Shown here piece after piece: positions 14,984 to 29,258 of a DNA stretch of 64,000 nucleotides. Positions within the stretch are counted from its first letter, which is position 1. Every line of letters starts with the position of its first letter. This stretch comes from Hymenobacter qilianensis (lineage in GTDB: Bacteria > Bacteroidota > Bacteroidia > Cytophagales > Hymenobacteraceae), in the NCBI RefSeq assembly GCF_014489555.1, contig NZ_CP060784.1:3348001-3412000 (forward strand), written 5' to 3'. The notes beneath the pieces were generated by a model. That model worked only from the letters and a program-made list of their open reading frames with translations. It was not told the DNA's origin and made no database searches. Made by a program: the position numbers and the translations under genes.

Positions 14984-15018
14984 AAAGAAGGTCCCACTTA
15001 CCAAGTAGGACCTTCTTT
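14984..15018. terminator. Intrinsic terminator of the secreted nuclease-like gene
   Basis: AAAGAAGGTCC...GGACCTTCTTT forms an 11-bp stem extended inward, 29 bp past the minus-strand stop at 15047. Confidence 0.8.
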
Positions 15019-15046
15019 ATTGGGTTGAAACCTGTCAGACGTTCGT

Positions 15047-18000
15047 CTATTGTTTCACAAACCGCTTTACATAGGTCTGGCCCGGACTTGTAATGCGTAG
15101 AATATACACGCCCTCACTGAGGCTAGATAGTTGCTGATTAAGCCGTTGGTTGACTTGCTCCAAAGAGCCCGCCGCCTGTGCCACGGCCCGGCCATCGGCG
15201 CTCATTACCTGCATACGCACCTGCTGTCCGGCGGCAGCTGGCAGGCGCAGCTGCACCTTACTGGTAGCCGGATTCGGATAAATATCCAGCTGAGCATTAG
15301 CCTTTTGTGCACTGCTGCTGGCCGTTACGTAGCCAAAAGCAAAGCGCGTCAATACAGGATAATGGTCAGAAGTGGTGTTGGCGTAGTTGGGAATTAGGGC
15401 CGCCAGATCGGTGCGGAGCTGAGCCGTAGAAGGCAGGTAAAAAGTATTCAGCTCGCTGGACACCACAACGTGGTCGATAACGTCGCCAAAATCGACGGTG
15501 GAGCGCTGGCCTGTCTGGCTCAAAGGCAAGGTGAGCGCTGTGTAGTTGGCCACGTCGGTGGTGAAGGCGCTGAACGATGTAGCGGTGGTGTTCACGCCGG
15601 AGGCCACGGTCTGGTCGAGGTCATCATTGAAGTCGCCCAGAATAATAACGTTGCCGCTGCCGAAGCGCGTGTCCAGCTCTGCTTTCAGCGCATCGGCTCC
15701 CACCTTACGACGGTCGTAGGCCTCCTGAGCATCCGCAACGGAGGTGTTTTCGTTGGCTTTGGCGTGAATAAGCACAAAGTTTATGCGCTTCGTCTGGCCG
15801 TTGATAGTTATATCAGCCTCCATTAAATAAGGAAAGCGTCCCGAAGACCAAGCGTTATACTGGGGGCAAGTAGTGGCGTTATTGGGGCAGCGCAACAGTC
15901 CGGAGAACGTAGGATTGCTCACGACACCCGTGCGATACACAAAAACCAGCTTCTGGGCCGAAGCATAGTCGGGGTCGTTGTTGTCGGGGGCATTTGAACC
16001 GAATTCTGCCACCTTATACTTAAAGCTGCCGGGCAGCTGGCGCACCACCGCACCCAAGCGGGCCGTGTCCACTACTTCCGTCAGCCCATATACATCAGCA
16101 TTCAGGTTTGTCAGAATAGTCTGTACGTTGGTCTGCTGCAAGTCATCATTGGCAGGTGCCTGCGCTGTAGAGCCAAACCACTCAATATTCCAGTTGGCTA
16201 CGTCCAGCGTGTTGTCTGGCGCGTACGTATTGCCTGATACGGCTACAGTTACATTGGAGGCGCCTGTGGTACTGGCTGTTAAGGTAGAAGTATAGGAGCG
16301 CGCCGTCAGTGTAGGCGTGAAGCGCACGGTTAGGGTGGTGGAAGTGAAATTGGCCTCCTCTACGGTGTAAGTCAGGGAATTAGAAAAGGCAGTAGTGCCG
16401 TTTTTGGAGAGCTGGAAGGCTGGGTCAGATGATGTAATGGTTACGGGGCCCGTCAGGTTGCGGAAGGTAGCAGTGAGCGTTTGTTGGGCCGACGCGTTAA
16501 TTGCCTGATAGCCAAAGGCCAGACTAGCGGGGTTGAGCAGCAAAACCGGGGCGGCTGGTGCATTGGCGTTTTGCAGGCGCAAATCATCCAACGTCCAACG
16601 GGCGGCTCCCAACTCCGGGCCACTGGTGTATACAAAAGCTATGTAAACGTTGGGCGCTTTAAAGCGAGTAAGGTCGATATCAGGCGTTAGCGTCCAGACA
16701 TCGGAGCCACTGCCGGGGAAGTCAGCGTTCAGGTCGGTCCAGGTGACGCCGGCGGCGGTTGGGCTGCCCGTTCCCGAGTAGTTGGTCGAAACCCGCAGCC
16801 GCAGCGCCGCACCCGAGAAAGCCACCCGGCTCCAGAACGAGAAAATAGGAAACTGAAAGGTGCTCAAGTCAAAGGCCGGCGAAATCAACCAATCCTCATT
16901 GGGTACACTAGCACCCGAAGCAAAACCATTGATCTGTAGTCCATTAGGTGCAGAAGCGCGGTTGGTGGGGTCGTTGCCTGCGCGGCCAAAGGTGGTGCAG
17001 CCCCAGGTTTGCGGGCCCGTCACGCTGACGGCCGTCCAGGTATCGAAGCTGGTAGAGCCGCTGGGGCACACGTCAAACGAAAACAGGTTGTTGTTTGGAT
17101 CGATGCCCGTACCAGAAACGGCTACACTCTTGGCTTCCGCCCCGGTGCTGGTATGCGTGATGGCCCCGCTGGTAGCGCCGCCTGTGGTGGGAGTAAAGCG
17201 CACATACACCGTTTGGGCCGTAGCCAACTCAGCGGGCGTAAAAGTGAGCGTAGAAGTGAAGACAGCGGCGGGAGCGTTGCTTTTGGATAAAGCAAAACCA
17301 GCTGGGGCCGTGGCTGTTACGTCGGCTGTCAGGCTGCTGCCGGTGATGGTATAGGACTTGAGCGCCGAGTTGGTGTTAATAGCTTGGCGGTCGAAGGCCA
17401 GACTGGCTGGGGTTACACTCAGCAGGGGCGAAGGGGTGCCCGCGTTGAACGACAAAGAAAAGTCGTCAATGGCCATTCCGTCATCGGCGCCGGCGGCATT
17501 GAAATCGGTCCAGCGAATCCAGAAAGTGGCGTTCGGAGCGATGTTCAGGTTGCTGATGGTGGCCGTGAGCGTAGCCGTATGAATAGGAGTAGCTACCCCG
17601 CCACCAATAACAGTTGCGCTGGGCGGATTGCTGTAGTCGAGCGCATCCACATCCAGCCAGCCATCGGTGGTAGTGAGCGAAGTGGCAGACGTACTGTATT
17701 GAAAATCAAGTCGGTCGGAGCGGGCAGTGCCGCCAACGCGCCAGGTTTCGCCCTGATACGTCAGGGTGAGGCTAGTGATGGTAGCGCTGGTATTGTTGGT
17801 GAAAGAAGCTCCCAGCGTAGGTGTCACGCTACCGCTAAGTAAGCCCCCCAGCGCCCGGTCCGTCGACCCATCGGCTCCGTAGCTATATGTATTGCCGCTA
17901 TTCAGAGCGCCATTATTGGCCGTATAGGTAGTATTTGCTGCCGTTCCCACCTCCGCGAAATCCCAGCCAGTGGGAAGCGTAGTTTTCTCATTTGTGCCGG

Positions 18001-18124
18001 TAGCAGGCAGCAAATCAAAGTTTTGGGTGTAGGGGCTGGTGGTGAGGGGCGCCTGTGCCCATGCACCGGCCCCGTGCGCGAGTAGAAGGCAGCAAAGCAG
18101 CCGAAAAAGTAGAGTCTGTTTCAT
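15047..18124 (-). CDS. Secreted endonuclease/exonuclease/phosphatase-domain protein with type IX sorting tail
   Basis: A 1,025-residue secreted protein. In order: signal peptide (LLFRLLCCLLLAHGAGAWA), a lectin-like beta region, an Ig-like repeat (SLAFDRQAIN...), a second beta-sandwich, another repeat (SLAFGYQAIN...), an EEP-family domain at about residues 640-920, and a C-terminal sorting domain. The EEP domain has NWNIEWFG near its start, ILGDFNDDLD in the middle and TTSDHYPVLT at the end, which are the metal and catalytic motifs of DNase I-like phosphodiesterases. The tail (DIYPNPATSKVQLRL ... GVYILRI ... YVKRFVKQ) is a type A T9SS signal, so the protein is exported and attached to the surface or released. 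A role in extracellular nucleic-acid or phosphate scavenging is inferred. Confidence 0.9.
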   Translation of the reverse strand: MKQTLLFRLLCCLLLAHGAGAWAQAPLTTSPYTQNFDLLPATGTNEKTTLPTGWDFAEVGTAANTTYTANNGALNSGNTYSYGADGSTDRALGGLLSGSVTPTLGASFTNNTSATITSLTLTYQGETWRVGGTARSDRLDFQYSTSATSLTTTDGWLDVDALDYSNPPSATVIGGGVATPIHTATLTATISNLNIAPNATFWIRWTDFNAAGADDGMAIDDFSLSFNAGTPSPLLSVTPASLAFDRQAINTNSALKSYTITGSSLTADVTATAPAGFALSKSNAPAAVFTSTLTFTPAELATAQTVYVRFTPTTGGATSGAITHTSTGAEAKSVAVSGTGIDPNNNLFSFDVCPSGSTSFDTWTAVSVTGPQTWGCTTFGRAGNDPTNRASAPNGLQINGFASGASVPNEDWLISPAFDLSTFQFPIFSFWSRVAFSGAALRLRVSTNYSGTGSPTAAGVTWTDLNADFPGSGSDVWTLTPDIDLTRFKAPNVYIAFVYTSGPELGAARWTLDDLRLQNANAPAAPVLLLNPASLAFGYQAINASAQQTLTATFRNLTGPVTITSSDPAFQLSKNGTTAFSNSLTYTVEEANFTSTTLTVRFTPTLTARSYTSTLTASTTGASNVTVAVSGNTYAPDNTLDVANWNIEWFGSTAQAPANDDLQQTNVQTILTNLNADVYGLTEVVDTARLGAVVRQLPGSFKYKVAEFGSNAPDNNDPDYASAQKLVFVYRTGVVSNPTFSGLLRCPNNATTCPQYNAWSSGRFPYLMEADITINGQTKRINFVLIHAKANENTSVADAQEAYDRRKVGADALKAELDTRFGSGNVIILGDFNDDLDQTVASGVNTTATSFSAFTTDVANYTALTLPLSQTGQRSTVDFGDVIDHVVVSSELNTFYLPSTAQLRTDLAALIPNYANTTSDHYPVLTRFAFGYVTASSSAQKANAQLDIYPNPATSKVQLRLPAAAGQQVRMQVMSADGRAVAQAAGSLEQVNQRLNQQLSSLSEGVYILRITSPGQTYVKRFVKQ

Positions 18125-18270
18125 GAGACAGGTGTTTGGTGACGGATAAACAATCTACGTTCTTGTATTAAGAATAGATATTATTTTTATACTACAAATT
18201 CGCCCCGATTTCTGACGCTAAACTTCTCCTCAAACCTCTCCGCGAAACAATTCCTTTGGGCCCACAAACG

Positions 18271-18296
18271 AAAAAAGCCCCCTGGGGGGCTTTTTT
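18271..18296. terminator. Terminator formed by a tight inverted pair of the motif
   Basis: AAAAAAGCCCCC-TGGGGGGCTTTTTT is a near-perfect hairpin with almost no loop. It follows the stop of the ATP-grasp-like gene by about 30 bp on the minus strand and probably ends the cluster that begins at 23705. Confidence 0.8.
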
Positions 18297-18327
18297 AGCT
18301 AACAACCTGTGAATGAAGTGAACAGAC

Positions 18328-19515
18328 TCATTCGAACAGGCACACTGTGCCGCCCACCCAATCTTTATTTTTATTAAAATCAACCCCAATCATTTCGCCC
18401 CGACTCAGGCGACCCAGATTGGTGAGCAAGAGCGGCCGTGGCGCCTGCTCCGGCCAGCCATACAGCATCCTGATTTCGCATTTCACCAGCCCGTCCGGCG
18501 ACTGCACCACGGGCTCGTACTGCACTTTGCGTTGCAGCAGGTAGTTCTGCTTATCCGTAATGGCATCAAGGTCGGCAGCGGTTATGTGCAGGCGCACGCC
18601 GCTGCCGGCAAAGGAAAATAGCGGCTTAAGGACATAATTTTCCAGATCAGCGGGATAGGTAGTCAGCGTGTGCAGGAAGTGGCTTTCGGGCACAAACGGA
18701 CTGTGCAGCAAGGGCATAGTGTACTTGCTGATGCGGAAAAACCAGTTCGGGTGCCCCACCCACGTAACGTCCACATCGTCGGTGAGCTGAAACTCCGTTT
18801 TCAGATCGGGGTGCTGATCCAATTCGTCGAAAATCAGGCGGTTATAAATGCGCTTGATAGGAACATGACGGCCTTCTTTCTCATAGTACAGCTGCCGTCC
18901 TTGCTTGCGAACCTTGGTCAGGCAAACAACCTCAATCCCCAAAGCCCGGCGCGTCAGCTCGAAGTCGAGACGGGTTTTCTGCTTTTCCGGAAATAGCTCC
19001 AGTAAGATCACCTGCTCCGGATTTTCATCGGCTACAATCAGCTGCCGCAAATGCTCGATGTAAGCGGCGCTCCCACCCGGCTGAAACACATGCGAAACCG
19101 AATCGGGCACCGGAAAATGCTCCCGAAACACCCGCGGCAGAAAGTCCTGAAACGCATAAAGCGATGGAAAGCCCTGTAGCTCAATTAGCTGAGGCTCCAG
19201 GTCGCCTTGCGCATTGCGGCAAACGGCAAAGTCAATTGCCAGGAAAGAAGTGTGCTCGTTTTCATTGGGCACGCGCTGGCGAGGCGGCACAGCCTGCTCG
19301 GTAAGCGATTTGAAATTGGGAGCCGTAAGCACATCAATGATGCTTTCGCCGGCGCTGATGAGCTTATCCCGCAGGGCAGCAGGTACAAAAATGGGCGTTT
19401 CAGCAATTCGGAAATCCGGCAGGCCAGGCAACTCACGCTCAATGGCTTCGAGCATTTCCTGGTAGCGCGATACGCTAAAGGCTTGGTTGTACGCTTGGCG
19501 GATTTCGGGAATCAT
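18328..19515 (-). CDS. ATP-grasp-like ligase of the amide-ligase cluster
   Basis: A 395-residue protein. The start at 19515 (MIPEIRQAYNQAF) is preferred over 19557. The C-terminal half looks ATP-grasp-like: NYVLKPLFSFAGSGVRL resembles the nucleotide-binding strand-loop, followed by QRKVQYEPVV, VKCEIRMLYGW and a terminal GEMIGVDFNKNKDWVGGTV. The N-terminal part includes LIELQGFPSLYAFQDF, recalling glutathionylspermidine-synthase-like ligases. It is the last of five minus-strand genes and likely forms one amide bond in their product. The family name is inferred from motifs only. Confidence 0.65.
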   Translation of the reverse strand: MIPEIRQAYNQAFSVSRYQEMLEAIERELPGLPDFRIAETPIFVPAALRDKLISAGESIIDVLTAPNFKSLTEQAVPPRQRVPNENEHTSFLAIDFAVCRNAQGDLEPQLIELQGFPSLYAFQDFLPRVFREHFPVPDSVSHVFQPGGSAAYIEHLRQLIVADENPEQVILLELFPEKQKTRLDFELTRRALGIEVVCLTKVRKQGRQLYYEKEGRHVPIKRIYNRLIFDELDQHPDLKTEFQLTDDVDVTWVGHPNWFFRISKYTMPLLHSPFVPESHFLHTLTTYPADLENYVLKPLFSFAGSGVRLHITAADLDAITDKQNYLLQRKVQYEPVVQSPDGLVKCEIRMLYGWPEQAPRPLLLTNLGRLSRGEMIGVDFNKNKDWVGGTVCLFE

Positions 19516-19573
19516 AGCTAAGGAATAGAAGCGGAGTGGAAAGTAAAGGTTGGGCAAGTGTACGCAAAATAAA

Positions 19574-19609
19574 GAACGTCAGGCTCCACCTGCATGGCGC
19601 CTGACGTTC
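19574..19609. terminator. Hairpin between the amidotransferase and ATP-grasp-like genes
   Basis: GAACGTCAGGC pairs perfectly with GCCTGACGTTC around a 14-base loop; an AT-rich sequence with several T's follows on the minus strand. It may attenuate expression of the last gene in the cluster. Confidence 0.5.
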
Positions 19610-19638
19610 ATTTAACTAAATGCCTGTGCTGATGCTTG

Positions 19639-20472
19639 CTATGCTGGTTGCAATGTAGCCTCAGGCGCTGATAGCGCGGTAATAGCTTCGCGTAGAAATG
19701 TGGGCACCACCACTGACTCCGTTAATTCGATGGTGCCAGGGTCCTGAAGCAGGCGCACCATATCGTTGTACTTGTCTTCGCCATGTTCCTGCACAATCTG
19801 CTGGCGCTTCGCATCGGTCAGGAAGTATCGCAGCATGCCTTCGCCATCAGCCTCCGGATGAAACTGAGTGCCAACTATTTGAGGCGTAAACCGGATGGCC
19901 ATGATGGCCCGCTCCAATGGTACGTGTGGGCGTTCTTTTTCTAGGCACAATACCTTGATGCCCAGGTCTGCCATGTGGTTAGCATCAGGCTCAATTACCT
20001 GATAGTCGCGCGAATCGACGGCGTAGAACGGGGCCGGCAATGACGCAAACAAGGAGTCGTTATTGCCATCGCTTGTTTTGGTGATAGGAAAAATGCCAAA
20101 CGAAGTGGACTTGCGCTTACTTAGCGTGCCAACACCTAAGTGCCGGCTTACCAATTGGAAGGAGTGGCAAATGAGCAGTAAGTGCTTTTTGCGTACATGA
20201 ATGCTGTTCCAAGCAAAAATGCTGTCAATCAGCGCGAAATAGGGCTGCTCCCAAGCCTCATCGGAAGGAAGCGGGCTGCCCGGACCTCCCGACGAGATGT
20301 AAATATCGTAGTCCAACGTCGGCAACTCACTATTGGCCCGGACGTTAAAAATGTCGAAATACAAAGCCGCACCATCAGACTGAGCCTGACGAATTAACCG
20401 CAAAATACAACGCATGCCTTCGTTAGGCCGGTTGTCGTACATATCTAAAATGGCAATCTTCAAAAACTTCAT
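19639..20472 (-). CDS. Class I glutamine amidotransferase-like protein
   Basis: A 277-residue protein with the GATase-I triad: Cys102 in LLLICHSFQ (nucleophile elbow) and His205/Glu207 in GTQFHPEAD. The N-terminal SSGGPGSPLPSD matches the conserved glycine loop of the family. Such domains release ammonia from glutamine, or hydrolyse gamma-glutamyl bonds when they stand alone. Lying between the ligase genes, it could supply ammonia for an amidation or remove a gamma-glutamyl group from the product. Confidence 0.85.
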   Translation of the reverse strand: MKFLKIAILDMYDNRPNEGMRCILRLIRQAQSDGAALYFDIFNVRANSELPTLDYDIYISSGGPGSPLPSDEAWEQPYFALIDSIFAWNSIHVRKKHLLLICHSFQLVSRHLGVGTLSKRKSTSFGIFPITKTSDGNNDSLFASLPAPFYAVDSRDYQVIEPDANHMADLGIKVLCLEKERPHVPLERAIMAIRFTPQIVGTQFHPEADGEGMLRYFLTDAKRQQIVQEHGEDKYNDMVRLLQDPGTIELTESVVVPTFLREAITALSAPEATLQPA

Positions 20473-20518
20473 GCAACGGTGCTTACTACAGAGAATCAGC
20501 CAATTATTGGAAAAAATT

Positions 20519-20554
20519 AGACCTCAGCAGTTGCCCAATGGGTCTGTGAGGTCT
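20519..20554. terminator. Hairpin between the GCS2 and amidotransferase genes
   Basis: AGACCTCA and TGAGGTCT form an 8-bp stem with additional pairing possible inside (CCCAATGGG). On the minus strand the sequence then runs into AATTTTTTCC, so it could be a weak terminator or attenuator. Confidence 0.45.
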
Positions 20555-20621
20555 ACACTCATTGGCAAGATACAACGCAGTTGTCTGTCAGTACGTTTTT
20601 ATCCAATTATCATAACAAAAA

Positions 20622-21725
20622 TCAAAGACCGAAACTGGTTTCCGCGACAATAAAGTCAACTACCTGCTTCAGGTCGCCTGTCTGACGGAATACGGCCAGC
20701 TGACGGTCGGCGCCGGTGCCCATTTCCAGCATTTTCAGCACGTACTCTACTTCCTGGCGGCTACCCAAATCATCTACCACATCATCCACAAAATCAAGCA
20801 GTTCGAGGATGAGCGTGCGGGTCGGAATCTCTTCCTGCTTGCCAAAGTCAATCATTTTGCCGGCAATGCCGTAGCGGGCGGCCCGCCACTTATTCTCATT
20901 GATGAGCGCCTTACGGTACTGCCGAAAGCTTAAGTTGCTGATTCTGAGCTTGTAAATTTTGGCTACCAATGCCTGCATCACAGCTGCCAGCGCAATGGCT
21001 TCATCGGCGCGCAGCATCATGTCGCAGACGCGGTACTCGATGGTGTTGAAGAACGGATGGAGGCGCAAATCCCACCATATTTTCTTGCCATTATCAATGC
21101 AGCCCGTTTTTACCAGCAAGGCAATGTACTCATCATACTCGCTGGCGCTGGCGAAGTGCTCCGGAATGCCCGTGCGCGGAAACCGCTCGAACACCTTGGT
21201 TCTGAACGACTTGTAGCCCGTTTCGCGACCTTCCCAAAAAGGTGAGTTGGTTGATAAAGCGAAAATGTGCGGCAAGAAATACCGCAGCGAGTTCATCATG
21301 TACACGCCCAGTTCGCGGGTTTCGAGGCCCACGTGCACGTGCATACCAAATACAAGGTTGGAGCGGGCGGCATCCTGCAGCTCCTCCACAATCTTGTCGT
21401 AGCGTACGTCAGCGGTGATGGGCTGATCTTGCCAGCGCGAAAACGGGTGCGTGCCCGCGGCGGCAATCTTCAGCCCAACCTTATCGGCCAGCTCAATCAC
21501 CTGCTGGCGCAGATGAATCACCTGATGGCGTGCTTCCTCGATATTCTGGCAAATAGTAGTGCCCACCTCGACCACCGACTGGTGCATCTCGGCCTTCACC
21601 TGCTCCTGCAGAATCATTTGGCCCCCTTCCACAATCTGCGACATGTGAGAGCGCAAATCGCGGGTTTCCGGATCAATCGTTTGAAATTCTTCCTCTATTC
21701 CGAGCGTAAAAACAGGCTTAGCCAT
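20622..21725 (-). CDS. Carboxylate-amine ligase of the GCS2 (YbdK-like) family
   Basis: A 367-residue protein matching the GCS2 family, related to glutamate-cysteine ligase and E. coli YbdK. Visible signatures are TLGIEEEFQTIDPETRDLRS at the start, AAAGTHPFSRWQDQ, LVFGMHVHVGL, ALSTNSPFWEGRETGYKSFR and WWDLRLHPFFNTIEYRVCD. Family members join an amino acid carboxylate to an amine using ATP. With two ATP-grasp-type neighbours it probably makes one of several amide bonds in a small molecule. The product is not known. Confidence 0.92.
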   Translation of the reverse strand: MAKPVFTLGIEEEFQTIDPETRDLRSHMSQIVEGGQMILQEQVKAEMHQSVVEVGTTICQNIEEARHQVIHLRQQVIELADKVGLKIAAAGTHPFSRWQDQPITADVRYDKIVEELQDAARSNLVFGMHVHVGLETRELGVYMMNSLRYFLPHIFALSTNSPFWEGRETGYKSFRTKVFERFPRTGIPEHFASASEYDEYIALLVKTGCIDNGKKIWWDLRLHPFFNTIEYRVCDMMLRADEAIALAAVMQALVAKIYKLRISNLSFRQYRKALINENKWRAARYGIAGKMIDFGKQEEIPTRTLILELLDFVDDVVDDLGSRQEVEYVLKMLEMGTGADRQLAVFRQTGDLKQVVDFIVAETSFGL

Positions 21726-21768
21726 AACGTTACTTACTTATCAATGGGAAGAGATGCCGCGAAAAGTG

Positions 21769-21812
21769 CTGGGGGCTTTTTCTACTTTAATTCCTTAGAA
21801 AAAGCCCCCCAG
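21769..21812. terminator. Inverted motif pair between the ATP-grasp and GCS2 genes
   Basis: CTGGGGGCTTTTTCT and AGAAAAAGCCCCCCAG face each other with a 13-base loop, giving a classical hairpin plus T run on both strands. It splits the cluster into two parts, so downstream genes may be read through at a lower level. Confidence 0.7.
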
Positions 21813-21815
21813 ATA

Positions 21816-22913
21816 CTATTCCTGAGCTTTTTTAGCTTTGGGGGCTGCGGCCTTGGGAGCGGCTGCCTTCTTAGGAGCGGCCGCGGCCTTTGGCGCCGCA
21901 GCTTTTGCAGCGGTTGGCTTTTTAGCAGCCACCGTTTTGCCGGCCGGAATCGAATCCTGGAAACCGTTCTGAGCCGAACGTTGCACGAACGTGCCCCAGG
22001 TTAGGTTGTCGCGGCCGGGCTGGTAGGCGCGGGCCTTCTCGATGGCAAGGTTGGCGGCGGCTTCCACTACCCACTCAAAATTCTGCTGACCTACGGAGTT
22101 CACGTCAGCATCAGGAGCAGGGTTGCCAAAGTCAATGGCGATTGGAATACCGTCGCGCACGGCAAATTCTACGGTGTTGAAATCGTAGCCCAAGCCTTTG
22201 TTGAGGCGCAGTACATAATCTTTAATGGTAGCCAGAAGCTTTTCGCCGGCCGGGCCGGTGGTTTTCATCTGGGTGGCGTAGCGCTGATGAAACTCGTTGC
22301 GGGGCTCGTAAGGCATGATGAGCACCTCTTTGCCGCCGATGCAGTAGCAGCGGAAATAATCGTCGAACTCAATGGCTTCCTGAAGCAGCATTACCAGTTG
22401 GCCGGTTTCGGCGTAGGCGCGGAAAAACTCTTCGGGGTTGTGGAGCTTATACACGCTTTTCCAGCCGCCGCCGGAGTGAGGCTTCATAAAGGCTGGAAAC
22501 CCGATTTTCTCGAAAGCCATGTCCCAATCCATCATTCGCAGATTGCGAAACGACCGTTCGCTGGTGTCGTCGGGGCGCTCTTTGGAGGGCAGCAGTAGGG
22601 TACGCGGCACGGGCACGCCAAGCTGCACAGCCAGGGCATTGTTGAAAAACTTCTCGTCGGCGCTCCACCAAAAAGGGTTGTTGATGACGGCGGTGCCGGT
22701 CAGAGCCGCGTTTTTGAGGTAGGCCCGATAAAAAGGGACATCCTGGGAAATGCGGTCGATGATGACGGCGTAGTCGGTGGGTACGTTCTGCTCGACCTGG
22801 TCGATGGAGACAAACTCGGCGGTGAATTCGCCGCCGGCTTTTTCATTTACCCGATCGACAAAAGCCTGCGGGAACGTGTTTTCCTGGCCAAAGAGGATTC
22901 CGATTTTTTTCAT
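21816..22913 (-). CDS. ATP-grasp ligase with histone H1-like Lys/Ala/Pro tail
   Basis: A 365-residue protein. The first ~300 residues form an ATP-grasp ligase: GILFGQENTFPQAFVDRV, the strand-loop FPAFMKPHSGGGWKSVYK that binds ATP, MLLQEAIEFDDYFRCYCIGG, and the metal-binding segment GIPIAIDFGNPAPDADVNS. The last ~45 residues are a low-complexity tail of repeated KKAAAPKAAAPKA units, like histone H1 or Bacteroidota HU-like tails, and probably disordered. The tail is unusual on a ligase and may bind nucleic acid or a polyanion. Confidence 0.85.
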   Translation of the reverse strand: MKKIGILFGQENTFPQAFVDRVNEKAGGEFTAEFVSIDQVEQNVPTDYAVIIDRISQDVPFYRAYLKNAALTGTAVINNPFWWSADEKFFNNALAVQLGVPVPRTLLLPSKERPDDTSERSFRNLRMMDWDMAFEKIGFPAFMKPHSGGGWKSVYKLHNPEEFFRAYAETGQLVMLLQEAIEFDDYFRCYCIGGKEVLIMPYEPRNEFHQRYATQMKTTGPAGEKLLATIKDYVLRLNKGLGYDFNTVEFAVRDGIPIAIDFGNPAPDADVNSVGQQNFEWVVEAAANLAIEKARAYQPGRDNLTWGTFVQRSAQNGFQDSIPAGKTVAAKKPTAAKAAAPKAAAAPKKAAAPKAAAPKAKKAQE

Positions 22914-23000
22914 GGTGTAGAGGTTAAAGACTTAGGGAGGTGTTCAATATGAAAGGGCGTAGGGCAAAGCCCGACGCTGTGAACGGGCTTGGGGGCTTTT

Positions 23001-23705
23001 TTACATCTGGGACAAGTAGTGCGGAAACATTTCGCGCCAGATGGGCCAGTCGTGGCTGCCGTTGGGCCGGATGTCGAGCCAGTGCCGGATGCCCTTGTTG
23101 TGCAGAATGCCCGACATTTCCTCGTTGCCGGGGCGGCAGAAGTCGTGCTCCGCAGTGCCGAGCACGATATTCATCTGATGAAAATGCTCGTTCTGGGCAT
23201 CGGGCATGTACTGTGGCGGATTGTTGTAGTACACGTCTTCGTCGTAGTGCCCATCCAGAAAGCGCCGCATATCGAAAGCAGCGCCCATCGTAAATAGATA
23301 AGCTACCTGCTCGGGGTGGCGGAAGGCGAAGTTGAGGGCGTGAAAGCCGCCGAAGCTGCATCCGGCTACGCCAATCTTATCGACGTGGCACTCCTGCTGA
23401 AGCGCGGGCACGAATTCCTGGCTAAGGAAACGGTCGTAGCGGTTGTGGTTTTGGACCCGCTCACCGGGGTGCAGGTGCTTGCCATACCAGCTGTCGTGGT
23501 CACGGCTATCGAGGCAAAAAAGCTTGATTTTGCCCGACTCAATAAACCAGCGTACCGATTCGACCAGCAGAAAATCCTTGGCTTCGTAATAGCGTCCGCC
23601 CGAGGTGGGGAAAATGACGATAGGGTACCCGTGCGTACCAAAAACCAGCATTTCGATGGCATGGCCAAGATGCTGGGAGTGAAAGGTGCGGTATTCTTCG
23701 TGCAA
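23001..23705 (-). CDS. Esterase D-like alpha/beta hydrolase
   Basis: A 234-residue cytoplasmic alpha/beta hydrolase of the putative-esterase family. The nucleophile is S117 in GVAGCSFGG; the histidine is in NGSHDWPIWREMF near the C-terminus. It is the first gene of the five-gene minus-strand cluster and lies 138 bp from the divergent esterase-DinB gene. No signal peptide is visible. It could release or trim the product of the ligases by cleaving an ester or thioester. Confidence 0.87.
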   Translation of the reverse strand: MHEEYRTFHSQHLGHAIEMLVFGTHGYPIVIFPTSGGRYYEAKDFLLVESVRWFIESGKIKLFCLDSRDHDSWYGKHLHPGERVQNHNRYDRFLSQEFVPALQQECHVDKIGVAGCSFGGFHALNFAFRHPEQVAYLFTMGAAFDMRRFLDGHYDEDVYYNNPPQYMPDAQNEHFHQMNIVLGTAEHDFCRPGNEEMSGILHNKGIRHWLDIRPNGSHDWPIWREMFPHYLSQM

Positions 23706-23843
23706 AATGGTCAGGACTTAGAGGGAGAGGAGAGTTGGAGAAAAGTAATGAAATATTTCATTGCACCATGTAAGCATGAGCTAAGAACCGGAAAAAGGTA
23801 CCTTGCAAGCCTAACATAGCGTCCGCCGATTTAGCTTTTAGTA

Positions 23844-25346
23844 ATGAATCAGTCACTTTTTTCGCCTTCCCAAGCCGCCACCGTACAAATAGTACGCGAC
23901 GAAACGCTCAGTTCAGCTTCTTTAGAGCGTACGGTGCGGCTGGATGTGGTGTTGCCGCCGGCCTTCGATCCTGCCGGGCACGGGCCTTATCCGGTTTTGT
24001 ATCTGAACGATGGCCAGGATTTGCGGCGCCTGCGCCTAAAAGCCACCCTCGATGCGCTGTATCAGCAGCAGGCGCTGCGGCCGTTCGTGCTGATTGCCAT
24101 TCACGCCGGCGACCGCATGCACGAATACGGCACCGCCGGCCGCCCCGATTACCTGGAGCGCGGCAACAAAGCGCACCTCTACACCGATTTTGTGCTGGAA
24201 GAATTGCTGCCCTATGTGCAGCAGAAATACCACGTGACCTCCGACCCGGAGCAATCCGTTTTTGCGGGGTTTTCCTTAGGCGGGCTCATGGCTTTCGACC
24301 TGGTGTGGCGCAACCCGGACGCGTTTGCGTGGGTGGGCGTTTTTTCCGGCTCATTCTGGTGGCGGCGCAAAGCCTTTGACGATGGCTACATCGATGCCGA
24401 CCGCATCATGCATGCGCTCGTGCGCTCGGGCCAGCCGCATCCCAGCCACCGCTTCTGGCTCCAAACCGGTACGCTGGACGAGACTAACGACCGTAACAAG
24501 AACGGCATCATCGACTCCATTGAAGATACGCTGGACCTGCTGGCGGAACTGACTCGGCAGGGTGTTCCCGATGAGCATATTCGCTACGTAGAAGTGGCTG
24601 GCGGCCGCCACAACCAGGAAACCTGGGGCCGCATTATGCCCGACTTTCTGCGCTGGGCCTTCGGCAAAACACCATCCCGGCCCTCCGATGCCTGGCTGCC
24701 CGCCGGCGCTCTGCCTTCCAAGCGGAACTGGGGCAGCTCTCAGCGTCTGAACCGGCAGCGGCGGCTGGCACCCAAAAAAGCCCCCCAGACCGCTGAAACC
24801 CCAGTGCCAGCGGAGTCAGTTGTAATTAAGCAGCCCATCAGCGGCGAATATCCCGCGTATTACGAAAACTACCTCCGGCACGTACCCGACAGCATCGATC
24901 CGGTGGAGCTGCTGGAAAAACAAGGCGCCCACGTTCGGGCTTTGCTAGGCGCCCTCACCGATGAGCAGGCGCTGCTGGCATACGCCCCCGAAAAGTGGAC
25001 CATTAAGGAGATGATTCTGCACATACTGGACTCAGAGCGCATTTTTGCCTACCGCGCCCTGTGCATTGCTCGCGGCGACCAGCAGTCGTTGCCGGGCTTT
25101 GATGAAAACGCCTACGCCCAGGCTTCGGAAGCCAACACCCGCCCGCTGGCAGATTTGCTGGCCGAGCACGCCGCCGTGCGCGCCAGTACCGTAGCGCTGT
25201 ACCGGTCATTTGCCCCCCACATCCTCGACAAGGTGGGTATGGCCAACGAGCACCCCATCAGTGTGCGGGCGCTGGTGCATGTGGTGCCGGGCCATGAAGC
25301 GCATCATTTAACAATTTTACATGAACGGTATTTGCCGTTATTGTAG
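23844..25346 (+). CDS. Esterase fused to a DinB/YfiT-like domain
   Basis: A 500-residue two-domain protein in one frame. Residues ~1-270 form a Fes/EstD-like alpha/beta hydrolase with nucleophile S144 in FAGFSLGGLMAFD and an acid/His region ending EVAGGRHNQETW. After a linker rich in Lys, Pro and Ala (PKKAPQTAETPVPAE, encoded by the AAAAAAGCCCCCCAG motif), residues ~335-500 form a DinB_2-like four-helix domain with histidines in ILHILDSER and VPGHEAHHLTIL that could bind a metal. DinB-like proteins often are thiol-S-transferases or isomerases using bacillithiol or mycothiol. The gene is divergent from the amide-ligase cluster and its first domain resembles the esterase there, so the two units are probably linked in function. 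Confidence 0.82.
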   Translation: MNQSLFSPSQAATVQIVRDETLSSASLERTVRLDVVLPPAFDPAGHGPYPVLYLNDGQDLRRLRLKATLDALYQQQALRPFVLIAIHAGDRMHEYGTAGRPDYLERGNKAHLYTDFVLEELLPYVQQKYHVTSDPEQSVFAGFSLGGLMAFDLVWRNPDAFAWVGVFSGSFWWRRKAFDDGYIDADRIMHALVRSGQPHPSHRFWLQTGTLDETNDRNKNGIIDSIEDTLDLLAELTRQGVPDEHIRYVEVAGGRHNQETWGRIMPDFLRWAFGKTPSRPSDAWLPAGALPSKRNWGSSQRLNRQRRLAPKKAPQTAETPVPAESVVIKQPISGEYPAYYENYLRHVPDSIDPVELLEKQGAHVRALLGALTDEQALLAYAPEKWTIKEMILHILDSERIFAYRALCIARGDQQSLPGFDENAYAQASEANTRPLADLLAEHAAVRASTVALYRSFAPHILDKVGMANEHPISVRALVHVVPGHEAHHLTILHERYLPLL

Positions 25347-25418
25347 CTTTAAAGCGCACAACACAAGCGAAGCTGCCTGCGTTAATACGTCCACCTCTCA
25401 CCTTCATCTGTTCTAGTC

Positions 25419-25538
25419 ATGGCTAAAGCACAAGACGCCCGCAAAGAGAAAAAGAAAGAGCCGACCAAGACGGCCAAAGAAAAGAAAGCCGCCAAGGACG
25501 AAAAGAAAAAATCGCGCGAGAGCAGCAGCGAACTGTAA
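25419..25538 (+). CDS. 39-residue Lys/Glu-rich microprotein
   Basis: An ATG at 25419 opens a short frame (MAKAQDARKEKKKEPTKTAK..., ending SRESSSEL) in which about a third of the residues are lysine. It is followed 15 bp later by a good terminator, and the codons look typical of the region. Similar tiny basic proteins occur in Bacteroidota, without known function; nucleic-acid binding is a guess. It starts 72 bp after the esterase-DinB stop and could be transcribed with it. Confidence 0.6.
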   Translation: MAKAQDARKEKKKEPTKTAKEKKAAKDEKKKSRESSSEL

Positions 25539-25552
25539 GCTGCTTACGCCCG

Positions 25553-25587
25553 AAAAAGCCCCCAAGTGTCAATTGGGGGGCTTTTTT
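25553..25587. terminator. Terminator from an inverted motif pair
   Basis: AAAAAGCCCCCAA and TTGGGGGGCTTTTTT pair around a 7-base loop, with a T run on the + strand. It ends the microprotein transcript. Confidence 0.85.
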
Positions 25588-25607
25588 GTGTTCGCCTAAA
25601 TCAGGCG

Positions 25608-25699
25608 GTCATGCAGAGCGCAGCGAAGCATCTCGCTCTCGGTCGTCTGATTACTAATTCTACTAAACACGCGAGATGCTTCGCTTCGCTCTGCATGAC
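25608..25699. repeat. 90-bp palindromic element, copy 2
   Basis: GTCATGCAGAGCGCAGCGAA on the left is mirrored by the right arm ending GCTCTGCATGAC, around a variable centre that includes GATTACTAATTC. It ends 18 bp before the stop of the next gene. Confidence 0.85.
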
Positions 25700-25716
25700 T
25701 GCCTTTTATAATCACT

Positions 25717-26337
25717 TTATAACGTATAATACACTTCCTTCTGCTTGTCGTGATGGCGCAGATAACCGTGCAGAACGAGCTTGATGAGGGTGCGGTAGGC
25801 GCGGCGCTGTCCTACATTGATGAGTTTTTGGTATTGGGCCAGCGTGATGCGCGGATTGGTGCGCAGGTAATCGAGCACGGCCAGCTCATCTTTGTTCAGC
25901 GGGATTTTCTCGAAGGTTGGCTCTTCGCGTTGCAGCACTTTTTCGGTGAGGCTGCTGGTTTGCACGCTCTGGTCGCGCACGCGCACGTAGCCGCGCCAGT
26001 CGCCCTCGGCCACTTGAGCGCGGTGGGGCTTGTGGGCGCTTTCGCGCACCGTCACGATGAGTACTGTCCGGTTGTCTTCTTCTACTTCTTTGAACGTGAG
26101 CAGGATAGGCGGATCTACGTAATGGGTGGCCGCCTCGCGCAGCACATGTATTTCCTCCGCGGCATCGCGCACGCCCACAATTCGCCCGTCATCATCGACG
26201 CCGACCAGCACGTAGCCACCGCGCGTGTTGGCCAGGGAAGCCAGGGTGCGCGAAATGCGCGTCGGGTGCGTGGTCTTTTTTTTAAATTCCACCTGCTCCC
26301 CTTCGCCTTCCCGAATCAACTCCTGTAGCGTAGGCAT
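25717..26337 (-). CDS. AlbA_2 (Schlafen-type) DNA-binding domain protein
   Basis: A 206-residue protein. The N-terminal ~120 residues form an AlbA_2/divergent AAA-type domain: EGEQVEFKKKTTHPTRISRT, a strand GGYVLVGVDDDGRIVGV, and TVLIVTVRESAHKPH with VRVRDQS. The remaining ~80 residues look like a winged-helix domain (RITLAQYQKLINVGQRRAYR). Proteins with this arrangement are usually transcription regulators of unknown target. A neighbouring palindromic element sits close to its 3' end. Confidence 0.8.
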   Translation of the reverse strand: MPTLQELIREGEGEQVEFKKKTTHPTRISRTLASLANTRGGYVLVGVDDDGRIVGVRDAAEEIHVLREAATHYVDPPILLTFKEVEEDNRTVLIVTVRESAHKPHRAQVAEGDWRGYVRVRDQSVQTSSLTEKVLQREEPTFEKIPLNKDELAVLDYLRTNPRITLAQYQKLINVGQRRAYRTLIKLVLHGYLRHHDKQKEVYYTL

Positions 26338-26423
26338 GGGCTATGCACTAATGTTGAACTAAAAACTTGCCCTGAAGAGCCAGCTAAGAAAATCAAACGT
26401 GCTGATAATTAACTACTTATCTG

Positions 26424-27307
26424 TTATTCCACGCCCGTTTCCTCCTGCGAGAGGCGCCAGAGGCGGGCAGATTCGGGGCGGCTCTGGGAGCGGCCGGAGG
26501 CACGGCTGGGTTTGCGGTTTTTGAAATACTTGCCGCTAACTCCTTCCACCTCAGGCGAAGAGGCCAGGTAGATGCTGGTTTGGGCGCCTTTCTCGGGCTG
26601 ATCATAAATGGCCGGGCGGCCCACCACATGGCTTTCATCAAGGGTGAACTTCCAGGATGGACCAAGCCCGTATCTACCATGCCGGGGTGCAGGCAGTTGG
26701 CCGTTACCTTCGTGAGGTCTAGGCGGTGAGCTAACTCGCTCGTGAACATGATGTTGGCTAGCTTGGAGTCGCAGTAAGCCGTGAACGAGCTGTATTTTTC
26801 GCGCGCATTGCGGGCTTCGGCCGAAGTCTCTATCTCACCCAGCCAGTGCGCTTCGGAGGCTACGGTAAGAATACGCGCTTTCGGAGCTTCCAGCAGCTGC
26901 GGCAACAGCAGATTGGTCAGCGCAAATACGGCCAGATGATTTGTGGCCCAGCTCAGCTCGTGGCCTTCTTCGGTGATGGTAAGCGGGCCCGGAAATATGC
27001 CGGCGTTATTCACCAGAATATCAAGCTGATCGAAGCGGCGGCTTACTTCCTCGGCCAGGGTGCGCACGTTGGCCAGCAACGACAGGTCGCAGAGCAGCAA
27101 ATCGAGCTGAGCGTCGGCACCGATGGCTTCGCGGATGGCCGTGCGGGCTTGCTCGCCGCGCTCCGGGTTGCGGCACACCATTATTACGCGGGCGCCGCGC
27201 CGTGCCAGCTCGCGAGCCGTTATCAGCCCGATGCCGCCGGAAGCGCCAGTAATGAGGGCCGTTTTACCGCGCAGGGGAGGAGAATTTGATTCAGAGGACG
27301 CGGTCAT
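26424..27307 (-). pseudogene. Short-chain dehydrogenase/reductase with a C-terminal frameshift
   Basis: An NAD(P)-dependent oxidoreductase, close to retinol dehydrogenase/protochlorophyllide-reductase-like SDRs: cofactor motif TGASGGIGLITARELA, NNAGIFPG, and the catalytic Ser with YCDSKLANIMF. The frame goes wrong after FMISP: the visible continuation (RKAPKPASTWPLRL) is not SDR-like, whereas adding one base to the GGG at 26595-26597 gives SPEKGAQTSIYLASSPEVEG and a natural end, SQEETGVE, at 26424. The repaired protein has 294 residues. The active site is upstream of the break. A sequencing undercall is possible. Confidence 0.82.
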
Positions 27308-27615
27308 CAGAAAAAAACAAAATCAGTAGTGGGGGGCAAAAATTGAGGTAACGTACGCTTTAGAAGGGCAGACGTTGAAAAACAGGCAGTGGTTAGGCAG
27401 TAAACGGCTTTTCAAGATGAAAAAGTGTCTTTGATCAAAAAGGCATGCGATAAGTAATGAAAGCAAAAAAGAACGTCATGCAGAGCGCAGCGAAGCATCT
27501 CGCGTGCTGATGTGAGGTTAGTAACCCAAATCAACACGCGAGATGCTTCGCTCCGCTCTGCATGACTCAAGACCATCATCTGAAACAAAATCTAAGTAAA
27601 AAAGCCCCCCAGCCG
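27308..27615. other. Intergenic DNA with repeats between the dehydrogenase and DUF3127 genes
   Basis: No gene visible. It contains GGGGGGCAAAA at 27331, a palindromic element (27475-27566) and an AAAAAAGCCCCCCAG motif at 27598-27612. Confidence 0.6.
27475..27566. repeat. 90-bp palindromic element, copy 3
   Basis: Left arm GTCATGCAGAGCGCAGCGAA and right arm TTCGCTCCGCTCTGCATGAC flank a centre with GGTTAGTAACCC. Nearly identical to copy 2 in both arms. Confidence 0.88.
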
Positions 27616-27651
27616 AAAAAAACAATGCCGCCCTCGGTAGAAGGCGGCATT
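27616..27651. terminator. Terminator of the DUF3127 gene
   Basis: AATGCCGCC and GGCGGCATT form a stem of 9 bp with a 10-base loop; on the minus strand a run of seven T's follows. It lies 26 bp past the stop at 27677. Confidence 0.85.
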
Positions 27652-27676
27652 GAGAAGATTTCGCAAAGCAGAGCGC

Positions 27677-28108
27677 TTAGAAAGGAAGATCGTTGTCGTC
27701 GTCGCCGGCGATAGGAGCGGCGGGCTGAGCGCGAAGGTTCGGGTTTTGGTTCTGAGCGGGGGCCGCAGCGCGGGGAGCCGCTTGCTGCTGATTGCCATAG
27801 TTGCCGCCAGCAGCGGGAGCACCGCCACCTGCACCAGCTTCGATGCGCCAGGCTTCCAGGTTAGTGAAGTACAGCATCTGGCCGTTTTTGTTGAAGCCGC
27901 GGCCACGCAGATTAAACGTCACTTTTACCTCGTCGCCGATTTTGAAAGGATCTATCAGGGCTGTCTTATCCTGCACCAATTGGAACTTGATATGCTCGGG
28001 GTACTGGCCCTCCTGGACTTCCAGCACGAACTCGCGCTTGCGGAATTTTTCACTCACCTGCTGTTCGTCGAAAATCTCGTGCAGGCGGCCGGTAGCGTCG
28101 TAAGCCAT
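27677..28108 (-). CDS. DUF3127 protein with SSB-like acidic C-terminal tip
   Basis: A 143-residue protein. Residues 1-90 are the DUF3127 domain (VSEKFRKREFVLEVQEGQYP, IKFQLVQDK, IGDEVKVTFNLRGRGF), probably an OB-fold. A Gly/Ala/Gln-rich linker leads to the end DDDNDLPF, which resembles the C-terminal tip through which single-stranded DNA-binding proteins recruit partners (DDDIPF in E. coli SSB). The start at 28108 is preferred over 28354, whose extra 82 residues are not conserved. A DNA-replication or repair role is inferred from these features. Confidence 0.85.
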   Translation of the reverse strand: MAYDATGRLHEIFDEQQVSEKFRKREFVLEVQEGQYPEHIKFQLVQDKTALIDPFKIGDEVKVTFNLRGRGFNKNGQMLYFTNLEAWRIEAGAGGGAPAAGGNYGNQQQAAPRAAAPAQNQNPNLRAQPAAPIAGDDDNDLPF

Positions 28109-28144
28109 AAAAAAGGAATAGTTGAAATGATGAAAATGGGAAGT

Positions 28145-28152
28145 CAAACGTA
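28145..28152 (-). promoter_or_regulatory. -7 box for the DUF3127 gene
   Basis: The minus strand reads TACGTTTG, an exact match to TAnnTTTG, 37 bp upstream of the start. No convincing -33 TTG is seen at the usual spacing. Confidence 0.45.
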
Positions 28153-28307
28153 CGAAAAAAAACCCGTTTCGGTTAATAAAACGGGTCGAACTCCGGTCCG
28201 TTGAATGCGTACCTAGTAGGACCAGGAACACCCGAAACTGGTTCCCGAAGCTACCCAGGGTTTGTCTATATTTTGCGCTTTCAGGCGTATCCACCCATTT
28301 CTTGCTT

Positions 28308-29258
28308 ATGAAATCCACCTTTGCACTGGCCATACACGGCGGGGCCGGCACCATCTCCCGCGACCAAATGACCCCCGAAAAGGAGCAGGCCTACCACGCC
28401 GCGCTCCGGCAGGTGCTCGAAGCGGGCCACGACGTATTGCGCCAGGGCGGCGCCGCCCTCGATGCAGTAGAAGCGTCGGTGCGTGTGCTCGAAGATTCAC
28501 CTTTGTTTAACGCTGGGCGAGGAGCCGTATTCACCCATGATGGTCGCCACGAAATGGATGCGGCCATCATGGACGGGCGAGACCGAAGCGCAGGCGCCGT
28601 GGCAGGCGTGCGCAATCTGCAAAACCCGATCAGCGTAGCTCGCATGGTGATGGAAAAGTCGGACCACGTGCTGCTGGCCTGGCCGGGTGCGGAGGATTTT
28701 GCCCGCGAGCACAACCTGCCCACCCAGCCCGACGAGTACTTTTTCACCCAGCATCGCCACGACCAATTGCAGGAAGCGCTGGAGTCGGGGGGAATTCAGC
28801 TTGACCACAGCGAATCGAAAAAAGCCCCCCAGCCCAAGAAAATGGGAACCGTGGGTGCGGTGGCCCGCGACCAGCACGGCAACCTGGCCGCGGCCACCAG
28901 CACCGGCGGCATGACCAACAAGCGCTACTCCCGCATCGGCGACTCGCCCATTATTGGGGCCGGCACCTTCGCCGACAACCGAACCTGCGCTATTTCCTGC
29001 ACTGGCTCGGGCGAATACTTTATGCGTGCCGTAGCTGCCTACGATGTAGCCTGCCTCATAGAATACCGTGGCCTGAGCTTAGCCGAAGCCTGCCGCATCG
29101 TGGTGCACGATAAGCTAGAGCCAGTAGGGGGCGAAGGTGGATTGATAGCGGTAGATGGCGCCGGTAATCTAGCGCTGCCCTTCAATTCAAGTGGCATGTA
29201 TAGAGGCACCATCACTTCCGAAAGCCCACTTTTCACCGCTATTTATGAGGATAAATAG
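28308..29258 (+). CDS. iaaA: Isoaspartyl peptidase/L-asparaginase (N-terminal nucleophile hydrolase)
   Basis: A 316-residue precursor of the plant-type asparaginase family, which hydrolyses beta-aspartyl dipeptides and asparagine after self-cleavage. The cleavage site is G180/T181 in KKMGTVGAVARD, where Thr becomes the nucleophile; TSTGGMTNKRYSRIGDSPII and CTGSGEYFMR are the other active-site segments. The loop before the cleavage site contains KKAPQP, encoded by the AAAAAAGCCCCCCAG motif. ATG at 28308 is preferred to the TTG two codons earlier. It converges with a cyanophycinase gene 125 bp away, and the two enzymes classically act in sequence. Confidence 0.93.
   Translation: MKSTFALAIHGGAGTISRDQMTPEKEQAYHAALRQVLEAGHDVLRQGGAALDAVEASVRVLEDSPLFNAGRGAVFTHDGRHEMDAAIMDGRDRSAGAVAGVRNLQNPISVARMVMEKSDHVLLAWPGAEDFAREHNLPTQPDEYFFTQHRHDQLQEALESGGIQLDHSESKKAPQPKKMGTVGAVARDQHGNLAAATSTGGMTNKRYSRIGDSPIIGAGTFADNRTCAISCTGSGEYFMRAVAAYDVACLIEYRGLSLAEACRIVVHDKLEPVGGEGGLIAVDGAGNLALPFNSSGMYRGTITSESPLFTAIYEDK

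Follow-up and report, generated by a model that had tools for sequence, protein, structure and literature searches.

Three amide ligases and associated hydrolases form a conserved gene set in Bacteroidota that may make a small amide-bonded metabolite

Six genes of Hymenobacter qilianensis, encoding an esterase (EST), two ATP-grasp ligases (GRASP1 and GRASP2), a carboxylate-amine ligase (GCS2), a protein of class I glutamine amidotransferase fold (GAT1) and a divergent esterase, appear on balance to be a dedicated pathway to a small amide-bonded metabolite, and our best reading of the product is a gamma-glutamyl-type pseudopeptide or peptide-amine conjugate, accompanied by a recycling hydrolase. 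We read the genes as a pathway because their strand and order are kept across loci, the ligases co-occur even when unlinked, GRASP2 and GAT1 are replaced in some genomes, and the set is absent as a block from two congeners; the predicted fold of GRASP2 and the conservation of catalytic or near-invariant residues also support this reading. The genes lie in the window, i.e., the whole 64,000-nucleotide stretch that was analysed (contig NZ_CP060784.1), where an earlier note had correctly placed two ATP-grasp genes, a GCS2 gene, an amidotransferase, an esterase and a divergent esterase-DinB gene:

23001 to 23705, minus strand: EST, alpha/beta hydrolase of PF00756 type, heading the gene row (Pfam match)
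21816 to 22913, minus strand: GRASP1, ATP-grasp ligase of RimK/LysX-like fold (TIGR00768 below cut-off and predicted structure)
20622 to 21725, minus strand: GCS2, carboxylate-amine ligase of YbdK/PRK13515 type (Pfam and NCBIfam)
19639 to 20472, minus strand: GAT1, class I glutamine amidotransferase fold (Pfam and conserved residues)
18328 to 19515, minus strand: GRASP2, ATP-grasp ligase, predicted glutathionylspermidine/eukaryotic glutathione synthetase fold
23844 to 24800, plus strand: divergent esterase, N-terminal part of the esterase-DinB gene (approximately residues 1-319)
24801 to 25346, plus strand: DinB part of the esterase-DinB gene (approximately residues 320-500)

The reading frames are where that note had put them, except that GRASP2 probably starts at 19515 rather than at the TTG at 19557, since the methionine at 19515 is invariant (44/44 aligned sequences). 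EST and the divergent esterase both match PF00756 in a Pfam search, and across 36 EST sequences D188 is invariant while S117 and H218 are near-invariant.

Among 160 loci fetched (80 anonymous and 80 named), all five genes of the row, i.e., EST, GRASP1, GCS2, GAT1 and GRASP2, were found in 31 of the anonymous and 49 of the named loci. Since all 80 of these five-gene loci (76 distinct) keep a single strand and an identical order, the arrangement goes beyond chance and the five genes are a real unit; the gene order is kept in other Bacteroidota, and a lack of conservation elsewhere is excluded. Named carriers include Hymenobacter, Spirosoma, Dyadobacter, Chitinophaga, Pedobacter, Arenibacter and Saprospiraceae MAGs. 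Core gaps between the genes have medians of 12-44 bases across loci, lengths that are lower bounds because ORFs were taken from the first possible start. Clustering of the ORFs, in which shadow ORFs over GRASP1 were chosen in some loci, was used for neighbour finding only.

Searches of 395 Bacteroidota genomes found GRASP1 in 134, GRASP2 in 114 and GCS2 in 117; GRASP1 and GRASP2 were shared by 110 genomes, GRASP2 and GCS2 by 109, and all three ligases by 105 (about a quarter), counts in which related genomes are not independent samples and misses are possible, since few first-look candidates were scored per genome. The 134 include the divergent GRASP1 genomes G126, G205, G278, G404, G474, G486 and G505; the weak GRASP1 genomes G172, G176 and G472 and twelve weak GCS2 genomes (<410 bits) were left out. 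The three ligases were frequently unlinked, with GRASP2 apart from the others in some genomes. GCS2 was missing from 5 and GAT1 from 45 of the 114 GRASP2 genomes, which counts against the pathway reading.

Gaps in the window are 87-149 bases long with hairpins inside them, and a terminator-like hairpin between GCS2 and GAT1 occurred in 10/16 Hymenobacter loci, a sample that contains three genomes twice (9/13 after merging duplicates) and was searched without a shuffle control. A scan of the window region gave 17 terminator-like sites, where shuffled sequences averaged 10.0 (sd 3.1); in the window, the gap between GCS2 and GAT1 folded only slightly better than its shuffles (z -1.63). No RNA element reached the Rfam gathering score at 14000-30500. 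The inter-gene hairpins argue against one simple transcript in Hymenobacter, where the genes may be independently regulated. These hairpins, together with the scattering of the genes in several families, could be taken to mean that the genes encode independent household enzymes that are neighbours by accident; gene order, co-occurrence even when scattered, the replacement pattern and the block absence contradict this explanation and make it highly improbable.

In two congeners, the whole set is absent as a block from a site that is otherwise conserved. Both lack the divergent esterase part and carry a free-standing DinB (residues from 320 or 326 to 500) at the same site. Of the 160 loci, 14 carry the fused esterase-DinB gene, all of them Hymenobacter (12 distinct genomes); one further Hymenobacter (L131, the same as L167) has esterase and DinB as separate frames, and other genera have the divergent esterase without DinB. 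Since the flanks and a DinB gene standing alone remain in the cluster-minus congeners, we judge DinB to be a flanking gene that became fused and lies outside the unit. In addition, bshC was present in all 62 genomes tested, with or without the cluster, so these bacteria probably make bacillithiol. The earlier suggestion that the DinB-like domain points to a thiol cofactor was not borne out: the cue is weak, as DinB lies outside the unit, its fusion among these loci is confined to Hymenobacter, and bshC is present regardless of the cluster. The place of DinB outside the unit and the general presence of bshC also speak against a glutathione-like thiol as the product, for which GCS2 would make gamma-glutamylcysteine and GRASP2 would finish a thiol tripeptide. 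Such a thiol would suit a cluster in which a GCS-family ligase accompanies a ligase of glutathione-synthetase fold, but the cut-offs that GCS2 does and does not reach also speak against it, and we consider it quite improbable.

GCS2 matched PF04107 at E 1.8e-67 (228 bits, cut-off 21) and scored above the cut-offs of two YbdK-type models, TIGR02050 and NF010039 'carboxylate-amine ligase' (542 bits, cut-off 371), but reached just 62 bits against TIGR02048 (cyanobacterial-type glutamate-cysteine ligase), far under the cut-off of 249. Its family profile aligned with YbdK 1r8g over 333 positions, and on sequence GCS2 is firmly assigned as a YbdK-type carboxylate-amine ligase. Like glutathione biosynthesis (GCS plus eukaryotic-type GSS), the cluster holds a GCS-family and a GSS-fold ligase, and it differs in its YbdK-type GCS2, its third ligase, its hydrolases and its bshC-bearing hosts.

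The GRASP2 protein of the window had no match in Pfam or NCBIfam at E 0.001 and represents a ligase family that both miss at this threshold. Its predicted model was informative, in that all 30 Foldseek matches at E<=0.001 belonged to the glutathione/glutathionylspermidine synthetase group, with Z 25.6 to YjfC and YgiC (7uk6: Z 25.6, rmsd 3.6, 341 residues) and Z 8.8 to the next group. GRASP2 is thus predicted to be an ATP-grasp protein of glutathionylspermidine/glutathione synthetase fold. Since its best-scoring relative (L220: 16.2 bits, E 0.0061) missed the Pfam GSP_synth cut-off of 29.3, we claim the fold and not membership of the family; a sequence-level tie to YgiC was rejected (E 0.026 across 74 positions only). 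Gsp synthetase/amidase pairs a ligase with an amidase, and in the cluster, similarly, a ligase lies beside a separate amidase-like gene. Gsp synthetase and YgiC/YjfC resemble GRASP2 in predicted fold (Z 24-26), whereas sequence identity is 10-14%, the cluster adds two further ligases and, compared with Gsp synthetase, GRASP2 is without a fused amidase domain and below the GSP_synth cut-off. YgiC/YjfC have been described as peptidyl-polyamine synthetases (Pederick 2023, cited in PMC12568646). The predicted model also shares its fold with Cp1B (9cjn, Z 22.3), the ATP-grasp enzyme which, with an amide-bond synthetase, carries out NRPS-free stepwise synthesis of a pseudopeptide in the E-64 pathway (PMC12568646), as we propose for the cluster; that pathway is fungal, uses another second amide-forming enzyme and makes its epoxysuccinate warhead first. 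ATP-grasp/GCS2 amidoligase neighbourhoods described by Iyer et al. 2009 likewise link ligases of different folds (PMC4431377). The kind of system, an amide-ligase cluster, is already known, and this particular set looks like a new form of it.

GRASP1 matched TIGR00768 (RimK family) at E 2.3e-7, and as its 30.5 bits fall under the curated cut-off of 143.4, we call it RimK-like by fold and do not file it as RimK. Its predicted structure (pLDDT 86.9) gave Z-scores of 22.5 to RimK, 21.8 to LysX, ~22 to LysX/ArgX and 20.3 to Ddl; by this weak family match and the predicted fold, GRASP1 is an ATP-grasp protein. RimK glutamylates ribosomal protein S6, and the substrates of RimK and LysX/ArgX are protein carriers. 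The ligases could, then, tag a protein or peptide with a gamma-glutamyl or polyamine tail, with GAT1 or an M29-like peptidase and the esterase trimming the tail, an explanation which would suit the closeness of GRASP1 to RimK and LysX/ArgX and the 7/134 genomes whose divergent GRASP1 is accompanied by neither GRASP2 nor a permuted ATP-grasp. However, RimK, LysX/ArgX and Ddl lie within ~2.5 Z, so the fold of GRASP1 does not decide between small and protein substrates, and inspection of the loci, which was unsystematic, noticed no recurrent carrier or target gene; we regard tagging as unlikely. The Foldseek matches of GRASP1 include the graspetide ligase PsnB, and graspetide clusters are known in Bacteroidetes (PMC8939145). 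That an ATP-grasp here modifies a ribosomal peptide would also fit recurring short ORFs, the most widespread of which (L160:2676-2795, ~1 kb beyond the divergent esterase) recurs in 10 other named loci, but core gaps are short and, in a simple screen, every short ORF was confined to at most 11 of the 80 named loci including its own (<=10 others). A graspetide is therefore most improbable. An Rfam search of three loci bearing ORFs like L160:2676-2795 gave no match.

GAT1 is assigned the class I glutamine amidotransferase fold on its Pfam GATase score (PF00117: E 2.5e-8; 34.2 bits, cut-off 22.8) and its Cys-His-Glu residues C102, H205 and E207, invariant in 43/43 sequences. Strong matches (>500 bits) to an M29-like peptidase were found in 8/45 GRASP2 genomes that lack GAT1 and in 0/35 others tested, and 7 of these 8 genomes carry it between GCS2 and GRASP2, i.e., in the place of GAT1. 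The occupation of this place by a peptidase in seven genomes hints that GAT1 is a hydrolase and speaks against ammonia delivery by GAT1. The strong M29-like gene explains just 8 of the 45 GAT1-less genomes, and since weaker matches (93-116 bits) were also obtained in 6/25 GAT1-positive genomes, the M29-like family is not exclusive to genomes without GAT1. GRASP2 shows a comparable pattern: a circularly permuted ATP-grasp, one representative of which matched PF14403, was found in 16/24 GRASP1-positive, GRASP2-negative genomes and in 0/49 others tested. Judged by this distribution, it takes over from GRASP2 in the 16 genomes, 9 of which lack GCS2 at the threshold used. The Puu putrescine pathway scavenges amines through gamma-glutamylation, and PuuD has the class I GAT fold. 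A Puu-like role, with GAT1 as gamma-glutamyl hydrolase, would agree with the fold of GAT1 and with its replacement by the M29-like gene, but it needs fewer than three ligases and unsystematic inspection of the loci noticed no recurrent oxidase or aldehyde dehydrogenase; it is very unlikely.

Returning to the dedicated pathway, we infer its enzyme activities, step order, substrates and product as follows. GCS2 would link an amine to a carboxylate, in all likelihood the one at the gamma position of glutamate. GRASP1 would then attach another amino acid, and GRASP2 would cap the growing chain with either an amino acid or an amine. The product of the three ligases is thus most likely a small peptide that is glutathione-like or carries an amine tag. 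GAT1, or the M29-like peptidase instead, would trim or recycle this conjugate by hydrolysing an amide bond, and the esterases would remove an ester or thioester. The earlier note had seen an amide-ligase cluster that might make some small peptide or conjugate; gene order, co-occurrence, the predicted fold of GRASP2 and the block absence lend support to this reading, in which the product is a proposal. To our knowledge, no product of this gene set is known, and its retention across many genera of Bacteroidota suggests an overlooked, widespread metabolite. More tentatively, and with some doubt, between a quarter and a third of Bacteroidota may have in common a so far undescribed metabolite distinct from bacillithiol. 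This would be a peptide-amine conjugate or gamma-glutamyl pseudopeptide that three ligases of different folds assemble and an exchangeable hydrolase breaks down, unrelated proteins having taken the place of the last ligase and of the hydrolase in some lineages. For knock-outs, the set is a well-defined target in genera that can be cultured, and cluster-minus congeners provide a natural comparison for metabolomics.

Several further candidates were considered. GRASP2 had no match among 72,556 plasmid records, and a search of the genome that holds the window for GRASP3, a third ATP-grasp, run without a positive control, gave no match. GRASP2 neighbours tested in other loci included an amidohydrolase, an aminotransferase and others; a sodium symporter was rejected as a general partner, being present in L219, L220, L221 and L223 only. 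The cyanophycinase and isoaspartyl peptidase next to the cluster (28302-30304) were likewise rejected as dedicated partners, since both are retained in the two cluster-minus congeners and genome G000 carries two more cyanophycinase genes.

The cluster region of the window (G000:C1:3348001-3412000) holds the following genes:

18328-23705, minus strand: EST (PF00756-type esterase), GRASP1 (ATP-grasp ligase), GCS2 (YbdK-type carboxylate-amine ligase), GAT1 (class I glutamine amidotransferase fold) and GRASP2 (second ATP-grasp ligase), in that succession
23844-25346: divergent esterase and DinB domain, as one gene

Curated family models clearly identified GCS2 as a YbdK/PRK13515 carboxylate-amine ligase. 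The GRASP1 sequence was weakly RimK-like (30.5 bits, below the model cut-off), and its predicted fold (pLDDT 86.9) was likewise RimK-like, with Z of 22.5 against RimK and ~20 against D-Ala-D-Ala ligases. GRASP2 had no Pfam or NCBIfam match, and its sequence profile matched YgiC only (E 0.026). Its predicted model (pLDDT 91.5) aligned almost full-length with glutathionylspermidine synthetase, YgiC/YjfC and eukaryotic-type glutathione synthetases (Z 19.6-25.6), the next group dropping to Z 8.8; all 30 Foldseek matches of this model at E<=0.001 belonged to the glutathionylspermidine/glutathione synthetase group. C102, H205 and E207 of GAT1 were invariant in 43 of 43 sequences, as was D188 of EST in 36 sequences, with S117 and H218 almost so.

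The earlier note had read these genes as a set that may make a small peptide or conjugate, and the same order was indeed found elsewhere in the phylum. Two sets of 80 loci were sampled: an anonymous set centred on GRASP1, and a named set centred on GRASP2 that comprises the best 80 of 580 relatives, the closest of which were from Hymenobacter. The anonymous loci held EST in 47, GCS2 in 46, GRASP2 in 43 and GAT1 in 42; these best 80 named loci, several of them on short contigs, held GAT1 in 71, GCS2 in 58, GRASP1 in 57, EST in 50 and a divergent-esterase match (>=35% identity) in 46. All five genes were present in 31/80 anonymous and 49/80 named loci (best 80 of 580), which amount to 76 distinct loci since four pairs came from the same genome, and strand and order were identical in every one. 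Median intergenic gaps in the fetched loci were 12-44 bases, and GAT1 and GRASP2 lay <=10 bases apart or slightly overlapped in 44 of the 105 loci having both.

Among 395 genomes of the phylum, GRASP1 occurred in 134 (137 minus three weak matches), GRASP2 in 114, GCS2 in 117 (129 minus twelve matches <410 bits) and GAT1 in 86. GRASP1 was found with GRASP2 in 110 and with GCS2 in 113, GRASP2 with GCS2 in 109 and with GAT1 in 69, and all three ligases together in 105, figures that are inflated by the relatedness of the genomes. Since the ligases are not adjacent in many genomes (none of the other four genes was present in 30 of 40 further GRASP2 loci, picked mostly because GRASP1 was already known to sit elsewhere), their co-inheritance reflects more than linkage.

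Within the genus, GRASP1 was matched in 30 genomes, including that of the window, and unmatched in 13. Two of the latter, G011 and G026, retain the flanking order of amidohydrolase, S46 peptidase, DUF1232, AlbA-like, SDR, SSB, isoaspartyl peptidase, cyanophycinase and M1 peptidase genes; at this conserved site all five minus-strand genes (GRASP2, GAT1, GCS2, GRASP1 and EST) are missing, and of the divergent gene, which lacks its esterase part, the DinB part persists as a free-standing frame. Neither ligase GRASP1 or GRASP2, nor GCS2 or GAT1, was found anywhere in the G011 genome. The esterase-DinB fusion occurred in 14 of the 160 fetched loci (the named half being the best 80 of 580), all from Hymenobacter (12 genomes), and one further Hymenobacter locus carried the two as separate frames. 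Because the two cluster-minus congeners keep DinB alone and the fusion is limited to Hymenobacter among these loci, the unit takes in the divergent esterase and excludes DinB. A T9SS-tailed protein with an exo/endonuclease-phosphatase domain (window 15047-18124) is missing along with the cluster in both congeners, which keep the isoaspartyl peptidase and cyanophycinase (one of three in the window's genome) adjoining the cluster at 28302-30304.

The DinB-like domain had also been taken as a hint of a thiol cofactor. It proved uninformative on the product, given the free-standing DinB and the presence of bshC in all 62 genomes tested, whether or not they carry the cluster; in 60 of them the match exceeded the curated cut-off. 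Bacillithiol genes have been reported from Bacteroidetes in a published survey (PMC6282198); bacillithiol is not substituted by the cluster.

In the window, the gaps measure 87-149 bases and contain hairpins, with z of -2.71 for GRASP1-GCS2, -3.03 for GAT1-GRASP2 and only -1.63 for GCS2-GAT1, where the hairpin is followed by a T run (20473-20621). In a simple search, terminator-like hairpins with differing stem sequences occupied the GCS2-GAT1 gap in 10/16 Hymenobacter loci (9/13 genomes), compared with 4/16, 0/16 and 0/16 for the other three gaps and with 13/87 over all loci. Since GRASP1-GCS2 is also separate from GAT1-GRASP2 in two loci (L242, L245), these results suggest two sub-modules.

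Individual members can be replaced. A different ATP-grasp adjoins GAT1 in eight GRASP1 loci, and the one representative scanned scored 37.3 bits, against a cut-off of 32, with PF14403, the circularly permuted ATP-grasp family. A profile built from these eight (A6), run on 73 genomes, matched 16, all among the 24 with GRASP1 but without GRASP2 and all with GAT1; it matched none of the other 49 genomes tested. Of the eight among these 24 genomes without an A6 match, seven had only a divergent GRASP1, the eighth being G498. Exchange events may be few, since the 16 genomes sit in families other than those of GRASP2.

Similarly, an M29-like peptidase (PF02073) occupies the place of GAT1 in some loci. 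Strong matches (>500 bits) occurred in 8 of 45 GAT1-less GRASP2 genomes, leaving 37 without, and in 0/25 GAT1-positive and 0/10 cluster-less genomes; in seven of the eight, the gene sits between GCS2 and GRASP2. Weaker paralogues (93-116 bits) in 6/25 GAT1-positive genomes argue against exclusivity. Since a peptidase stands in its place, GAT1 is suggested to hydrolyze an amide rather than supply ammonia.

In the pathway we propose, a gamma-glutamyl-type peptide would be assembled by GCS2 together with GRASP1, and the final amino acid or amine would be attached by GRASP2 or its permuted ATP-grasp counterpart. Reversing or trimming a bond would fall to GAT1 or to the M29-like enzyme, much as glutathionylspermidine synthetase/amidase does with its amidase half, and the esterases would target an intermediate held as an ester or thioester. 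In the E-64 pathway, a GRASP2-fold ligase is able to produce pseudodipeptides (PMC12568646), and linkage of amidoligases with different folds is a known theme (PMC4431377). Literature titles and abstract openings, a scope outside which the founding 2009 work falls, gave no description of this gene set.

Several other arrangements were observed. In six loci (L081, L082, L091, L188, L199, L208), the cluster has a third ATP-grasp (weakly DdaF-like) and a third esterase nearby, together with an M17 aminopeptidase. Five genomes of one other genus (G131, G213, G327, G394, G425; including L081 and L082) encode cyanophycin synthetase, adjoined by a cyanophycinase, on the strand opposite to GRASP2 and 0.1-1.7 kb behind it. 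Outside the window, the H. qilianensis cyanophycin synthetase (G000:C1:2686912-2689523) is split into two frames that overlap and score 720 and 387 bits, unlike the single frame over cut-off in 11/11 congeners tested; this could be an assembly error. Mutually similar short open frames (L160:2676-2795 and neighbours) lie ~1 kb past the divergent esterase in 11 named loci (best 80 of 580), three of which gave no Rfam match. Lastly, GRASP2 is in frame with a sodium:solute symporter in L219:5637-8240 (867 aa) and with a partial one in L221, and symporter genes lie directly upstream in L220 and L223.
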